Assembly (NCBI GenBank): GCA_903928685.1 | Contig: CAIYRS010000077.1 | Coordinates: 1 to 64,000 of the forward strand | From: an uncultured Methylococcaceae bacterium | Lineage (GTDB): Bacteria > Pseudomonadota > Gammaproteobacteria > Methylococcales > Methylomonadaceae | DNA length: 64,000 bases | Reading direction: 5' to 3' | Shown: positions 23,825-51,600 of the stretch, one piece after another | Layout of the letters: each line of letters begins with the position of its first letter | Numbering within the stretch: the stretch's first letter is position 1 | Translations under genes and position numbers: made by a program | The notes under the pieces: model-generated | What the model was told of the DNA's origin: nothing | The model's database searches: none | The model's input: the letters and a program-made list of their open reading frames with translations, nothing else

Positions 23825-24009
23825 TTGGGGTTTGGTGGTTTCGGAAGGCAATTTGGGTGGTTTTTTATGTAGGGTGGGCAAACAGCTTTATCGTTTGCCC
23901 ACCATCATATGCCGATACAGTGGTGGGCAGAAAAGCGTTGCCCACCCTACCCGGCTTGGGGTTTGGCGGTTTCGGCGACAGTTTTGGGTGATTTTTTGCG
24001 TAGGGTGGG
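23825..24009. repeat. 54-bp direct repeats flanking a REP palindrome
   Basis: Segments 23825-23878 and 23956-24009 are direct repeats (ttggggtttggyggtttcgg...tagggtggg). Between them sits the palindromic unit 23869-23950. The arrangement points to tandem duplication of a REP unit with its flank. Confidence 0.65.
23869..23950. repeat. REP palindrome (gtagggtgggca...)
   Basis: The arms gtagggtgggca and tgcccaccctac enclose inner inverted segments. The unit gggcagaaaagcgttgccca recurs next to both RAYT relics (43448-43479 and 47044-47128), so it probably belongs to the REP family mobilised by that transposase. Confidence 0.7.
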
Positions 24010-46184: not shown

Positions 46185-46361
46185 TTTGCTAGCTCTTTTA
46201 TAGTTTGGGTGCTGGGATTTTATTGGATGATCTCAGCACCAACTGCCACAAAAATAAGAAATTCCTTTAGTTACTGAGCAATACGGAATTTCTCAACCTC
46301 GCCCAATTTTTTTAAATCAAAATGTAATGGAACGGGTAACAACCCCGTTCCAGCCTAGCAA

Positions 46362-47007
46362 TCATTCCCCAGAGGTAACAACCTCCAAATCATCCGCCAC
46401 CCCCGCCCAATTCAGCGGATAAACCCGCTCAGCTACATAACGATGGAAAGTTGAATAAGGCCAATCGGCAACGTGTTGGCAATAACCATGTTTGACGGGG
46501 TTGTAATGCAGATAATCGACGTGACGGTTAAAGTCGGATTGGTCACGGATTTGGTGTTCCCAAAAGCGGCGTTGCCAGAGCGTGGATTCCCGATGTTTAC
46601 GTTTGGACGCGTTCAGCCAATCGGCGCGGCGGTAATGTTCCCGACATTGGATGCTGACTTGGCGTTTAATCAAACCTCAACGGCTAGAAAAATCGGCATC
46701 GCCTTCCGGGCAACGTCCAAATGCTCGGCAACTGCTCCTGCGTTGCTCTACCTTCTGCATGACCCACATGGACGTGGGGAATGCAGATAGCGCAGGAGCG
46801 GCTATCTGTCCATGCAGTCGAATGCAAGTGGTCGGGCAACAACACCCACGCATCAATGGTGAATGGTTTTTGCTAGCGCACAGAGATGTTCGCTTCCCGC
46901 AAAGCCACCCGCACAGCCTCATCACACAAAATCGGCTGGCGGCGGAAAATCACAACCGTAAAAAAATAACACGCCCCTTGGGTGTTAGCGCGGCGGTAAT
47001 TGGACAT
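46362..47007 (-). pseudogene. REP-associated tyrosine transposase (RAYT), inactivated
   Basis: The start MSNYRRANTQGACYFFTVVI, the mid motif VLLPDHLH-IW (the HuH histidines) and the C-terminus RFWEHQIRDQSDFNRHVDYL, then HYNPVKHGYC and WPYSTFHRYV identify a Y1-type RAYT. Three lesions are visible: a TAG in place of a probable CAG after NISVR, a 96-bp insertion at 46725-46820 inside the HLHCIW codons, and a one-base insertion just after (cccgg for ccgg). A 103-aa frame at its 3' end remains open but lacks the HuH domain. Confidence 0.85.
46725..46820. mobile_element. 96-bp element inserted in the RAYT gene
   Basis: Removing it restores the codons D-H-L-H-C-I-W across ccaaatgc|aatgcaagtg. Its ends (cggcaactgctcc... 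and ...ccatgcagtcg) match both ends of the 48-bp insertion at 56401-56448. It has an extra 49 bases in the middle that themselves contain inverted segments. No target duplication is evident. Confidence 0.75.
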
Positions 47008-47043
47008 GGTTTAAGCGGTTGGTAGTTTGTGGTATTGGTATTC

Positions 47044-47128
47044 GTAGGGTGGGCAACGCTTTTCTGCCTTTATGCCCTTTAGGTACACCTTTTGCGGCAT
47101 GATTAGTTGGCAGAAAAGCGTTGTCCAC
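47044..47128. repeat. REP pair upstream of the RAYT gene
   Basis: gtagggtgggcaacgctttt and the inverted aaaagcgttgtccac frame a 40-nt spacer, the bulge-palindrome pair typical of RAYT-associated REPs. It starts 37 bp before the RAYT start codon. Confidence 0.7.
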
Positions 47129-47132
47129 ATGA

Positions 47133-49586
47133 CTAAAGTTTAATAGCGGCAGCAACAGAGTTAAAACTTTGTGCGCCCATTTTTTGAAGAGTAGGCCAAT
47201 CAAAATATACAGGAGGTTCACTAATTTTAGCCCAGCATTCGTTGAGATATTCGCTGAATTTAATGGTTCGATTATAGCGAACACCTATATCGAATGACTC
47301 TAGTTTTTTCAAAATGTCATTTCGATAAATTTCATCGAAAATTGGAGTGTCAAATAGTACCGCATCCATATAAGCAAAACTGGTTGCCCAATATTGGACA
47401 TGGTATACGCCAATAGTTGTAATTCGAAAAGCAAGAGGCATATCCCCAACAAGACCTTGTAAACCTTCATCAAAAGTTATTCGTTCAGTAGTTTCAACAA
47501 GTTTTTTATTTGTTAGTCGTCTCAATTTATGTTCTATCTGGTCACTAACAAAACCATATTTCTGCATTTCAGTTAGTAAATCAGCTGTCCTAACAAATCC
47601 ATCGGGTGATTTATGCTGTCCGTCACTAATCAGATAACTAATAATTATTGGAGAAAGAAAATGTTCTTTTTTATCTGGATATCGCACATCAAAAAGATTT
47701 AAAGCTAGCGATGATGGTGCGTGATAATGAGAATATGCACCTAATATTGCTTGTTTAGTAAATTCATGTAACGGAATCATATATTTTCCGTCGGTTTCCA
47801 TTATGTTAATGATTTTTTCTGAATCAACATTTGCACTGCCAATAAAATCTTTAATTAAATCTAGTGCTTGGCGTATGTTTCCGCCTGTAATATTGCTTAG
47901 AAGTCGATTAATTTCTTTGTTGTTTTGCAACGAAAATAATAAAGCTTTTAAAAACAATGCTATTGATTCTAGTTTTATATTTATGCCTTCTAAACGATCT
48001 AATTGAGATTTTCCTTCAGCTAAATCCAATGAAAACTTCAACCGCTTAACAAGAACTAAATCAACTCTTGGCGGTGATATAGTAATAATTCTCTGAGAAT
48101 AGCCGGAAATTGATCCTGAGAACTTTGATGCAAAATATGTCTGAGGGCGAAGTGAGACTAAAACTAGTGCATGCCAGGTGGCGGCAAATTCTTGTGCAGC
48201 CATGAAAGCATCCTGTTGATCTAAAGGTTTTCTTTGGTCTGCATTGTCAATTGAAATAATTACTTGCTTTTTTCTGCCTTTTGAAAAGTGTTCAATACTT
48301 CGCCGAAAATGCTCTACTTTATTTTTTGTCAGAGATTCAATAAATTGTATTTGGTGTTCAATGAATTTTTCTGGAGCTGATTCTTTTAGAGGAGCATAGA
48401 TTCCATTATCAAATCGCTGGATATCTCTATAGTAAATTCCTCGAACTGTATTATTTTCATATAAATCGACTTCATACTCCTCAAAAAGCTGCCTCTCGAT
48501 TTCTTCTAAAAAGAAGGTGTGTAAATCTTGGCCTAAATTAGCTTGGCTACCAAGATCAATATAGATAAATATCGAATTTTTAATCTCATCAATAGCTTTT
48601 ACAAAAATCAAATGTCTTATAAAAGATGTTTTTCCAACTCCTACATCGCCAATAATAACAATTGGACGCCTACCTAGTGCTTCAGCAACTGCTTCTGAAT
48701 CCATTCCATATTTGTCATTTGTAGAAGGTTTCAAACCCTGTAATTTTGGACTTTGTAAAGATGGATTAAACATCGCAGCATAGCGGGCTGATAGTATTTT
48801 CTTACCCACCAAAGCATCTTTAGCCAGAGCTCCACTTTCGCAATAACATTCTTCATAAAACCGTTTTCTATATGAAGGAGTATTTGGAGCGTCTTCAATT
48901 AATAGGTCACTTAACATACGTAAGCTTTGTTGCGAATCACTTGGATATCGAAAAGAAGGGTAACCAGGTAGATAGCTCGAAAGTTTTGCTGGTATCCCTG
49001 TTGGTACACTGGAAACGAGATCTTTTAATAATAATTTACGGTGTTCAGCTTCTGGTGAAATTGCTTGCCAAAGACGATGGAAGTTACTTTCAATTTGATC
49101 CCAGCCATTAAATAGTAAGCATTTTCCTTCTGATGGTGGTATTCCATCGTTTCTTACCCCGATAAAGATAATGATTTGTGTCATATTTGAAACAACACCG
49201 ATTTGTATGCCGCGATCACTACAATACTTTTGTGTTTGTTCGAAAGCAGATTGAAAATTTGAGCTCAATTTCAATAATGAACTTAGTGATCGGAGAATAC
49301 TGTTATTGGTTTCGCAAGGTATATCAAAGGAGTTTCCTGCGCGTTTCGCTTCGATTACTATTTGTGGAGGGACTCCAAGTTCGTAATCGCTATATTCCCC
49401 ATTAAATCTGCGTTCAAGATGTGTTTGATTGGGGTGCCACCCTAAGCATTCATGAATTAGGCGGTCTATGAATCTATGACGTGTATCAGCTTCATTAATA
49501 TCATAATTTTCATTTTTTATGTCTTCAAGTAGGCGCGATATGGCAATCTGACCAGCAGCAAGATCAGACGGTATAGAATTTGTCAT
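47133..49586 (-). CDS. PD-(D/E)XK nuclease-like domain fused to a P-loop NTPase; candidate defence protein
   Basis: 817 aa. The N-terminus (1-130) resembles type I restriction HsdR N-terminal/PD-(D/E)XK nucleases: FIDRLIHECLGWHPNQTHLE, then EYSDYELGVPPQIVIEAKRA, with D67, E79 and K81 as candidate metal ligands. Residues about 309-320 hold the Walker A motif GDVGVGKTS and about 440 a Walker B VIISIDNAD. The C-terminal ~200 residues look like winged-helix modules (DLLTEMQKYGFVSDQIEHKL, RRLTNKKLVE). The order nuclease-NTPase-helical C-terminus is that of STAND-type, Avs-like anti-phage proteins. ATG at 49586. It sits beside a toxin-antitoxin pair and mobile debris. Function inferred, family not proven. 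Confidence 0.7.
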   Translation of the reverse strand: MTNSIPSDLAAGQIAISRLLEDIKNENYDINEADTRHRFIDRLIHECLGWHPNQTHLERRFNGEYSDYELGVPPQIVIEAKRAGNSFDIPCETNNSILRSLSSLLKLSSNFQSAFEQTQKYCSDRGIQIGVVSNMTQIIIFIGVRNDGIPPSEGKCLLFNGWDQIESNFHRLWQAISPEAEHRKLLLKDLVSSVPTGIPAKLSSYLPGYPSFRYPSDSQQSLRMLSDLLIEDAPNTPSYRKRFYEECYCESGALAKDALVGKKILSARYAAMFNPSLQSPKLQGLKPSTNDKYGMDSEAVAEALGRRPIVIIGDVGVGKTSFIRHLIFVKAIDEIKNSIFIYIDLGSQANLGQDLHTFFLEEIERQLFEEYEVDLYENNTVRGIYYRDIQRFDNGIYAPLKESAPEKFIEHQIQFIESLTKNKVEHFRRSIEHFSKGRKKQVIISIDNADQRKPLDQQDAFMAAQEFAATWHALVLVSLRPQTYFASKFSGSISGYSQRIITISPPRVDLVLVKRLKFSLDLAEGKSQLDRLEGINIKLESIALFLKALLFSLQNNKEINRLLSNITGGNIRQALDLIKDFIGSANVDSEKIINIMETDGKYMIPLHEFTKQAILGAYSHYHAPSSLALNLFDVRYPDKKEHFLSPIIISYLISDGQHKSPDGFVRTADLLTEMQKYGFVSDQIEHKLRRLTNKKLVETTERITFDEGLQGLVGDMPLAFRITTIGVYHVQYWATSFAYMDAVLFDTPIFDEIYRNDILKKLESFDIGVRYNRTIKFSEYLNECWAKISEPPVYFDWPTLQKMGAQSFNSVAAAIKL

Positions 49587-49766: not shown

Positions 49767-50000
49767 TTATACGCTATGCGATTCAACATAAGCATCCAGT
49801 AATCTGCGTATCATCCGCTGGTATTGGGTGTTATTTTTAGCCGCTTCTGACTTGAAAAACTCAACACTTTTCTTACTCAACGCCAAGGTGACTTTAACCC
49901 CTTCTTCATTGAAAGCTAATTCGGCGGGCGAGGGCAGAAAATCTGCAATTATCTTTACGTCGCCCAAGGGTTCATTGGTATATTTTATTTTCGCGTTCAT
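49767..50000 (-). CDS. brnA: BrnA-family antitoxin
   Basis: 77 aa from ATG at 50000. The C-terminal half is a ribbon-helix-helix region (VKVTLALSKKSVEFFKSEAA, TQYQRMIRRLLDAYV), as in BrnA. The N-terminal half (YTNEPLGDVKIIADFLPSPA) contacts the toxin in characterised pairs. It overlaps the 3' end of brnT by 29 bp. It should neutralise BrnT and repress the operon. A 12-residue upstream extension with a weak start is rejected. Confidence 0.85.
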   Translation of the reverse strand: MNAKIKYTNEPLGDVKIIADFLPSPAELAFNEEGVKVTLALSKKSVEFFKSEAAKNNTQYQRMIRRLLDAYVESHSV

Positions 50001-50262
50001 AGATTGCCTTGCCTTTACGCCAGTAGCCAGCGCCAATAATTCGAATAACAGCGGCCCGATAAGTGAACCGCACGGTTAAAATTCCACCACCAACTGCTCC
50101 GAAACAATAGAAACGTTCTTCGGTTTGGCTGTGGGATTCGTCTTTGGCAATAATACGAAGAGGATCAGCAAAGGCATATTGGGCAACGGTAAATGAAATG
50201 CCGTGCTTTGCCTGATTCAACACATCTTTTTCTACATCCCATTCAAATTTTGTTTTTGCCAT
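49972..50262 (-). CDS. brnT: BrnT-family RNase toxin
   Basis: 96 aa. The family opening FEWDVEKDVLNQAKHGISF is present, with FADPLRIIAKDESHSQTEER (histidine and ERF segment) and VRFTYRAAVIRIIGAG. The canonical end IISAR-R-A-x-x-x-E-x-x-x-Y is changed here to IIGAGYWRKGKAIYE, so activity is uncertain. Together with brnA it forms a type II toxin-antitoxin module in the usual toxin-first order. ATG at 50262. Confidence 0.85.
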   Translation of the reverse strand: MAKTKFEWDVEKDVLNQAKHGISFTVAQYAFADPLRIIAKDESHSQTEERFYCFGAVGGGILTVRFTYRAAVIRIIGAGYWRKGKAIYERENKIYQ

Positions 50263-50316: not shown

Positions 50317-51600
50317 TTACATACTCTCCTCATCAATCCCCAAAACCTTCATCTCCAAGCCCTCAATCTCCTGCAAAGATTTCCCCGCTATTCCCTGCAA
50401 ATCGCCATACATGCCGACGGTGGCGTTCATTACCCGCTCGATTTGTGTTTGCCGTTTTGCCCATTGCTTCATGATGGCTTTGCGTTCTTTGTCCAGGTCT
50501 TCTTGCATGGTGGAGAAGGCTTCGACGATGGCTTCTACGCGTTGTTTGAAGCGCGGGCCGGTGAGGTATTGGTAGACCAGTTCGGTTTTGCCGTGTTGGC
50601 CTTCGGCGGCGAGGCGGGCGAGTCCGATTTGTTGCAGGGTGTGGCGGAGGATGGTGGCGACGGGGAGTGCTGCGCGGGGGCTGGTGACCCAGATGCCGTC
50701 GATTTCTTCGAAGTTTTCTACCCCTTTGGGCAGGGCGTGGCTGACCAGCACGGCGATGTCGGCTTTGGCGTTGCGTTGGTCTTCGCGCAGTTTCACCAGC
50801 CAGCCGTCGCTCCAGTTTTTGGTACGTTTGGTTTCCCATAATAGCGTGCCGCTGATTTGTCCGGTGGGGCTGATGACGCGTTGCAGGGCATCGCCCCCGT
50901 TGTCGCCTTTGGCAACGGGTTCGATGCTGTCATAGGGGAATTTGGCGCGGAGCATGGCTTCCAATTCCATTTCTTGGACTTCGCCTTGCAGTTGTTGCGA
51001 GCCTTGTTCGGCTTTGCGTTTGAGTTCTTCGATTTTTTGCTGCATGGAAGCGATGGTTTGTTCGCGTTCCAGCACTTTGAGGTTAAGGCTGTCTTCGGCT
51101 TCGCGTTTGGCTTGGGCGCGGACTTCACCTAGGCCGTCTTGGATGCGTTTGGCGACGGTCAATTCCAGTTCACGTTTGGCATCGTCAAGTTCGCGTTGTT
51201 TTTTGATGAGTTCGGCTTGGGCTTGTTGGGCTTCGGCGAGTTTGATGTCGCGTGCTTTGAGCACGTCGTTGAGTTCTGCCAGTTCGCGGGTTTTGCTGTC
51301 GATTTCGTTGGCGGCGGCTTGTTTGGCTTTTTGGCTTTCTTCGCTGATGATGCGCTGGCGTTCGGTTTGCAGTTGCGCGGCGACTTGTTGGGCGATTTGT
51401 TCGTCTAGCGTGCGTTTGGCATCTTGCAGTTGTTTTTGTTGTTCGCGCAGGCCGTTTTCGCGCTGGGCGATGTCTTGGTCTTTTTGTGCCAGTTGTTGTT
51501 CAAATTGCTGGCGGGTGGCGGCAATCAGCGGGGCGGCGAGAGATTCAGTTAGGCGGATTTCGGTGGCGCAGTTGGGGCAATGGATGGTGGGTTCGGTCAT
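50317..51600 (-). CDS. DUF2130 coiled-coil protein
   Basis: 427 aa. It opens with a zinc-ribbon-like CPNC (only one pair), then a long coiled coil (about residues 25-225, rich in Gln, Glu, Lys and Ala), followed by the DUF2130 domain with GTLLWETKRTKNWSDGWLVK and VSHALPKGVENFEEIDGIWV. The W-E-T-K and D-G-W segments look like a PD-(D/E)XK-type core. DUF2130 proteins are widespread in bacteria and of unknown role; a DNA-linked function is likely. 54 bp from brnT in the same direction. Confidence 0.85.
   Translation of the reverse strand: MTEPTIHCPNCATEIRLTESLAAPLIAATRQQFEQQLAQKDQDIAQRENGLREQQKQLQDAKRTLDEQIAQQVAAQLQTERQRIISEESQKAKQAAANEIDSKTRELAELNDVLKARDIKLAEAQQAQAELIKKQRELDDAKRELELTVAKRIQDGLGEVRAQAKREAEDSLNLKVLEREQTIASMQQKIEELKRKAEQGSQQLQGEVQEMELEAMLRAKFPYDSIEPVAKGDNGGDALQRVISPTGQISGTLLWETKRTKNWSDGWLVKLREDQRNAKADIAVLVSHALPKGVENFEEIDGIWVTSPRAALPVATILRHTLQQIGLARLAAEGQHGKTELVYQYLTGPRFKQRVEAIVEAFSTMQEDLDKERKAIMKQWAKRQTQIERVMNATVGMYGDLQGIAGKSLQEIEGLEMKVLGIDEESM

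Follow-up and report, generated by a model that had tools for sequence, protein, structure and literature searches.

The 817-aa protein P0001, encoded in the window (the whole 64,000-nucleotide stretch of DNA analysed here), is probably a single-gene, DNA-cleaving defence protein that is self-contained, gated by ATP and free of any methylase. An anti-phage role of this candidate is supported indirectly by the swap of its gene for a PDC-S06 gene in a related genome, by carriage of its relatives in prophages and on plasmids, by their patchy occurrence and by the lack of a partner gene. If confirmed, P0001 would represent a one-gene restriction-like system with neither methylase nor partner, in which an AAA+ ATPase of the replication-initiator type gates an HsdR-type nuclease, and it would provide a compact model of how ORC/STAND ATPases discriminate foreign from self DNA.

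Gene and Coding Integrity

As shown by the ORF list and the translation, an intact frame of 817 aa with an ATG start runs on the minus strand from 49586 to 47133, and the plus strand across 47133–49586 is riddled with stops. The first-pass annotation had the coordinates and the length right but left the strand, which is minus, unstated; the motifs that it listed (EAKRA, D67, E79, K81, GDVGVGKTS and IISIDNAD) are all present in the translation and correctly numbered. In comparison with the 75%-identical copy from Methylomonas methanica, pN is 0.139 and pS 0.741, and in comparison with the 63%-identical Zoogloeaceae copy, pN is 0.258 and pS 0.747 (dS saturated in both cases); since pN lies well below pS in both pairwise comparisons, the gene is under purifying selection. 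The GC content of the gene is 0.355 against 0.464 for the whole window, and the segment is regarded as foreign because of this low value. The features of the locus are as follows.

47133..49586, minus strand: P0001, 817-aa protein with predicted HsdR-type nuclease, ORC-like AAA+ and winged-helix parts (ORF, alignment, models)
49047..49586, minus strand: predicted N-terminal PD-(D/E)XK nuclease domain, about residues 1–180, with E32, D67, E79-x-K81 and Q117-xxx-Y121 (AlphaFold2 model, fold matches, invariance)
47688..48944, minus strand: predicted AAA+ ATPase core and lid, about residues 215–633, with Walker A 313–320, DNAD 447–450, R480, R515 and GGNxR 568–572 (Pfam AAA_22, folds, invariance)
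47382..47672, minus strand: winged-helix-like region, about residues 639–735, followed by a C-terminal helical tail (model secondary structure, alignment with Cdc6 1fnn_A)
47049..47128, no strand assigned: REP-like palindrome adjoining the 3' end of the P0001 gene, at the homology breakpoint (sequence comparison)
46360..47037, minus strand: debris of a RAYT (REP-associated transposase) pseudogene, frames broken (blastn, 86–87% against L048, where the RAYT region is intact)
49972..50262, minus strand: BrnT toxin gene, in the same variable segment as P0001 (PF04365 match at 50014–50241)
49767..50036, minus strand: putative antitoxin partner of BrnT (ORF position)
50317..51600, minus strand: DUF2130 gene, which forms the constant flank of the variable slot (PF09903; 95% nucleotide identity to G019)

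Conserved Residues and Predicted Domain Structure

Structure prediction, which the first-pass annotation had proposed as a check, was performed with AlphaFold2 on an input of 14 sequences, and nuclease, ATPase and winged-helix folds were recovered in the model. The whole protein was predicted with a mean pLDDT of 77.2 and a pTM of 0.61, and residues 1–200 alone with a pLDDT of 83.1 and a pTM of 0.84. By predicted fold and by motif, the N-terminus is an HsdR/type IIG-like PD-(D/E)XK nuclease, which bears out the HsdR-N/PD-(D/E)XK-like reading given earlier. Folds similar to the N-terminal model are those of the HsdR fragment 3h1t (Z 10.7, 3.5 Å, 115 aligned), BpuSI 3s1s (Z 10.7, 3.9 Å, 155 aligned), DrdV (Z 10.2, 2.7 Å, 129 aligned) and the EcoR124I HsdR 2w00 (Z 7.7, 3.6 Å, 128 aligned), with a best Foldseek E of 3.7e-3, and the Pfam family HSDR_N_2 is reached by one of the 15 members of alignment A3 (E 0.0041). 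The residues E32, D67, E79, A80, K81, Q117 and Y121 are invariant in all 27 aligned proteins, and the motif QxxxY is one that we take to be typical of HsdR/RecB-type nucleases. In the linker ahead of the ATPase, an invariant Cys247 (27/27) is followed by Tyr248, which is kept in 26 of the 27.

The ATPase part is matched by Pfam AAA_22 over residues 305–452 at 27.7 bits, barely over the 27-bit cut-off, and the same family is matched by 15/15 members of A3. G313, G316, G318, K319, D447, N448, D450, R515 and R572 are invariant in 27/27 proteins, so that Walker A K319, Walker B D447 and lid R572 of an ORC/Cdc6-type ATPase are all present throughout, with a Walker B of the form DN-x-D rather than DE. 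R480, kept in 26/27, is presumed to be a STAND-like sensor-1 arginine, and GGNxR (R572) is likewise assumed to be sensor-2-like. Residues 216–739 of the model match Cdc6/ORC with a Foldseek E of 4.3e-6 (Cdc6 1fnn) and a VIA Z of 10.2–10.7: 1fnn_A aligns on model residues 221–739 with Z 10.2 and an rmsd of 4.0 over 237 positions, and 7jgr_G aligns with the ATPase/winged-helix model with Z 10.7 and an rmsd of 7.9 over 306. Further fold matches are TnsC (Z 9.9), RdrA (9.3), NRC4 (8.6), BrxC (8.3) and Avs3 (8.2). As the matched AAA+ families span only about 2.5 Z units, the initiator/STAND AAA+ clade is clear and its nearest member is not. The predicted ATPase is thus better named ORC/Cdc6-type than plain STAND, while it appears to keep a STAND-like sensor-1 arginine; of the STAND-like P-loop NTPase annotated at first, the NTPase stands, but the fold is nearest to ORC/Cdc6, TnsC and BrxC and not to a canonical STAND protein. 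The helical/winged C-terminus that had been read from the sequence agrees with the secondary structure of the model and with the Cdc6 alignment.

Distribution and Phylogeny of Relatives

The first-pass annotation could assign P0001 to no named system, and the searches give the same result. PADLOC holds no full-length model for the protein (best E 0.0017 across 37 residues) and yields only weak or partial matches to other family members; NCBIfam gives only weak or partial P-loop matches, and a search of PDB sequences gave no relative with a meaningful E-value. Relatives of similar length occur at 75%, 63%, 46% and 38–41% identity, down to 21–25%. A profile of the closer alignment A2 was used for the genome scan, the broad alignment A1 being too diverse, and it located 15 loci with relatives in genome contigs. 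Among plasmids, relatives occur in 25 of 72,556 records, in 11 of which the coverage is 80% or more, and no relative was found in 50,697 phage records or among the candidates in viral contigs. With the host genome counted each time, the gene occurs in 1/369 class genomes, 4/151 family genomes and 4/398 phylum genomes. None of the 19 other genus members has a full-length match, and one weak match of 70 residues was found in G007; L002 is a weak match with 38% identity over 70 residues. In E. coli, an Enterobacter-type relative is present in 7 of 5426 genomes and a K. aerogenes-type relative in full length in 8 of 5426.

In the tree, gamma-, beta- and alphaproteobacteria are intermixed with Nitrospinota, Nitrospina falling in the clade of the window gene. 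Three separate clades lie inside the family of the host: the window gene with Methylomonas; G435, which groups with Pseudomonas in a clade made up mostly of alphaproteobacteria; and G436, which groups with Klebsiella/E. coli. The mixed tree and the three clades in one family indicate horizontal spread. The tree and the column counts exclude L025 (frameshifted) and L005 (N-terminally truncated beside an IS3 element), L069–L072 lie outside the tree and alignment, L028 and L012 are one contig, which was counted once, and the placement of L011 and L026 is unsure owing to their long branches.

Several members depart from the common layout. The Vibrio proteolyticus copy (L025 9983–12438) is frameshifted, and the Vibrio casei copy (L005 9974–11650) is without the nuclease part, its start adjoining an IS3-family transposase gene. 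An Acinetobacter relative (L011 1827–4757) has an extra C-terminal region that, by eye, resembles cold-shock-type domains, and one A1 member also matches PADLOC CSD_V. A more distant relative at G733:C1:1068578-1070767 (L071 and L072, two pieces of one 841-aa frame) possibly represents a further subfamily.

The Variable Slot beside DUF2130

The P0001 gene lies in an exchangeable cargo site. In G019, a complete genome of the same genus, the DUF2130 gene has 95% and the RAYT region 86–87% nucleotide identity to the window, but the P0001 gene and BrnT are replaced by a gene for a 785-aa protein that matches PDC-S06, another defence candidate, in PADLOC over 782/784 positions (E 1.6e-293). The homology between the window and G019 ends at window position 47128, 5 bases from the end of the P0001 stop codon, and on the other side at 50326, close to where the DUF2130 gene ends. 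The 47128 edge carries a REP-like palindrome in the window, and G019 has one on each side of its cargo; since the G019 slot holds PDC-S06 between REP-like palindromes, the sequences suggest that cargo may be exchanged at REP sites. The swap at this REP/RAYT site suggests that the genus has a place where defence-like genes are exchanged on a small scale. At the same end of other DUF2130 loci, an ATPase-like ORF (G014 and G016) and a small antitoxin-like ORF (G015), both named by reading the sequence, were seen. The variable segment is bracketed in the window by 46360–47128 (REP/RAYT) and 50317–51600 (DUF2130), its counterpart being L048 6557–11029, and this REP-like palindrome arm also recurs at window 23868–23951 and 43456.

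The neighbours named by the first-pass annotation were mostly recovered. DUF2130 is matched by PF09903, and the RAYT debris is recognised because it aligns, at 86–87% nucleotide identity, with the part of the relative's genome that holds an intact Y1_Tnp gene: the G019 transposase exceeds the Y1_Tnp (PF01797) cut-off, and the debris in the window falls below this Pfam threshold. For the supposed BrnTA pair, BrnT was confirmed by Pfam (PF04365), but its putative partner matched neither PF14384 (BrnA) nor any PADLOC model.

Prophage and Plasmid Settings

Six of the 15 full-length E. coli loci were opened, and all six lie in prophages. Four are placed between a DUF977 gene and hokD, one of these being interrupted by IS1, and the other two, in reversed orientation, are flanked by DUF977 and DUF1367 in Rac-type prophages. 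DNA matching the DUF977 region occurs in 4013 of 5426 E. coli genomes, and most of the query, which extends as far as the start of the P0001-type gene, is matched in 7 only. Among five opened E. coli loci without a P0001-type gene, three retain the DUF977–hokD interval with other genes, namely QueH, a DUF5677 protein, and a SMEK protein with a methyltransferase; in the other two, hokD is not listed nearby. The interval is therefore a cargo slot, and not one solely for defence, as other strains hold varied genes there. This slot of lambdoid prophages was seen across L043–L045, L073 and L076–L078. On plasmids, the Shewanella copy adjoins methyltransferase and restriction endonuclease genes, and the truncated Vibrio casei copy has a type I R gene within 10 kb. 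The presence of relatives in E. coli prophages, among them proteins of the WP_001349602.1 and WP_045170235.1 types, makes the candidate function readily testable; as these relatives are only about 21–24% identical to P0001, caution is needed in inferring from them.

Neighbouring Genes of the Relatives

An all-against-all comparison of the flanking ORFs, in which the P0001-type gene itself recurred at 28 loci, revealed no recurrent partner family; the most recurrent flank families are an IS3 transposase, seen at 5 loci, and a resolvase, seen at 3. BrnT was considered as a partner of P0001 and rejected, as it does not recur beside the relatives. The defence-gene scan of the flanks covered 119 of 121 ORFs (L020:9687-9995 and L021:14486-21439 were left out), part of which were re-scanned singly in three sets of 10, one set being without any match. 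Strong defence matches were found at 4 of 15 loci: ZorA/ZorB directly upstream of the relative in L013, a type I HsdR in L012, PDC-S37 in L021 and PDC-M05A in L018. This count may be low, because a reverse-transcriptase match and a Cas1 match in the pooled scan were assigned to no locus. As controls, random stretches of 13 kb were taken from two relatives, and 139 of their 155 ORFs, in 13 of the 15 stretches (all but L060 and L067), were scanned; type I R-M genes occur in at least one of the 13, and mad3-type matches are found among the controls too. The enrichment of defence genes beside relatives is not significant (4/15 loci versus at least 1/13 control stretches, Fisher p 0.21), and the neighbouring defence genes are therefore not used as evidence of enrichment.

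Proposed Function and Alternative Explanations

In the proposed mechanism, the ORC/Cdc6-type AAA+ and winged-helix part would assemble on or encircle invading DNA under the control of ATP, or would respond instead to a state of DNA or protein that infection brings about, and the HsdR-type nuclease would then cut DNA. Since P0001 has neither a methyltransferase nor a specificity subunit, classical restriction-modification is impossible for it, and the choice between self and non-self must rest with the ATPase/winged-helix part, which may read the structure, the modification or the replication state of DNA, or else a phage protein. A more specific form of this mechanism, which we offer only tentatively and think rather unlikely to hold in full, is that the ORC/Cdc6-type part loads as a ring on replicating or origin-like invader DNA and cuts it through the fused nuclease, so that one polypeptide, carried as swappable cargo at REP/RAYT sites and in prophage slots, would perform methylation-independent restriction by replication state. 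Three findings were weighed against a role in defence, namely the enrichment p of 0.21, the lack of relatives in phage records and viral contigs, and the lack of a PADLOC model. In addition, the swap is by itself no proof of defence, because both swap sites also hold other cargo (BrnT, QueH and others).

The main rival, which overlaps biologically with restriction of the invader, is abortive infection: the STAND/AAA+ part would sense a phage protein or state, the nuclease would degrade cellular DNA indiscriminately, and the cell would die, so that the protein would still be defensive, but suicidal. The STAND-like R480 in 26/27 proteins, the presence of Avs3, RdrA and NRC4 among the structural matches and the lack of a self-marking methylase partner are consistent with such a role, which we consider possible but doubtful, since the C-terminus is predicted to be a winged helix with helices rather than an Avs/NLR-type repeat sensor, and the best folds are those of the DNA-binding ORC/Cdc6/TnsC proteins. 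The TnsC match (Z 9.9) and the adjoining IS, recombinase and plasmid genes would also fit a component of a mobile element, that is, a fusion of a TnsA-like nuclease with a TnsC-like AAA+ regulator, serving transposition or plasmid maintenance. This is unlikely: integrase, TniQ and relaxase genes do not recur, IS3 transposase and resolvase being the only such families to do so, the nuclease is HsdR/IIG-like by fold, and the lambdoid prophages that carry relatives have integrases of their own.

It is less probable still, and in our opinion very unlikely, that the ATPase–nuclease is incidental cargo of a toxin–antitoxin module that stabilises the segment; BrnT does lie just upstream on the same strand in the host genome, but it is not recurrent beside relatives, which strictly keep the catalytic residues in its absence. 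Finally, a housekeeping enzyme of DNA repair or replication, which an ORC/Cdc6-like fold joined to a nuclease might bring to mind, is highly improbable for a low-GC gene that has spread horizontally, has no full-length match in the other genus members, is missing from most relatives and is absent from all core genomes. A DNA-cleaving defence protein thus remains the preferred reading of P0001.

Comparison with Known Systems

P0001 shares the PD-(D/E)XK fold, the D..ExK and QxxxY motifs and the N-terminal placement of the nuclease with type I HsdR and with the type IIG enzymes BpuSI and DrdV. However, HsdR has an SF2 helicase motor, whereas only AAA-type P-loop families match P0001, which has an ORC-like AAA+ part instead; and type I R-M works with HsdM/HsdS partners, whereas no such partners recur beside P0001 relatives, and no methyltransferase or specificity part is present. 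With ORC/Cdc6-clade ATPases (BrxC, TnsC and SspC-type), P0001 shares the AAA+ core, the lid arginine and the winged helix, but it differs from them by its fused N-terminal HsdR-type nuclease, and no BREX, Ssp or Tn7 partners recur. Tn7-type TnsA/TnsC are defined by a DDE integrase and a TniQ/TnsD partner, and neither gene recurs beside P0001 relatives. The sensor-1 arginine is presumably shared with STAND proteins of the Avs/NLR-like kind (Avs3 Z 8.2, NRC4 Z 8.6), but STAND Avs proteins have a C-terminal repeat sensor (TPR/LRR-like), which P0001 lacks in the model and in the Pfam search for repeat families, and no Avs match was obtained in PADLOC. Similarly, the AAA+ fold matches RdrA of RADAR (Z 9.3), but P0001 has its own nuclease instead of a recurrent partner such as a deaminase.

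According to the excerpted text of PMC12839542, BrxC is a wHTH-bearing ATPase of the ORC/Cdc6 clade, and in BREX it has 1200–1300 residues and a coiled-coil C-terminus and occurs with PglZ and BrxX; P0001 has 817 aa, no such neighbours recur, and PADLOC gives no BrxC match for it. It has been reported in part of PMC13326643 that ATP regulates the self-association and DNA binding of BrxC. In excerpts from screens, PD-(D/E)XK nucleases occur in 13 and P-loop NTPases in 7 of a further 31 validated E. coli systems, each in new contexts (PMC13092281), and DNA-binding or cleavage components occur in 11 systems of a functional screen, only one of these with a methylase (PMC9519451); prophages and satellites are described as carriers of antiviral hotspots in the portion consulted of PMC9122126. 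Our literature search, which covered its sources in part, found no fusion of an N-terminal HsdR-type nuclease with an ORC-like ATPase; the DefensePredictor supplementary tables, which lay outside its scope, may hold a validated E. coli relative.

A closely related kind is found in the sections consulted of PMC10853773, where Orc/Cdc6 ATPases combined with wHTH domains and with REases, whether active or inactive, are described as mobile conflict systems, among them the CR-effectors, which combine a CDC6/ORC1-clade NTPase with a C-terminal REase. P0001 has in common with these the Orc/Cdc6-clade NTPase, the REase, the wHTH and the mobile loci. In those systems, as far as the same sections describe them, the REase either lies at the C-terminus, or is inserted and inactive, or is encoded by a separate gene, often with HerA/FtsK, whereas the REase of P0001 is N-terminal, apparently active and solitary. 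P0001 belongs to a known kind, the conflict proteins that combine a nuclease with an ORC/STAND ATPase, and adds a new variant to it.
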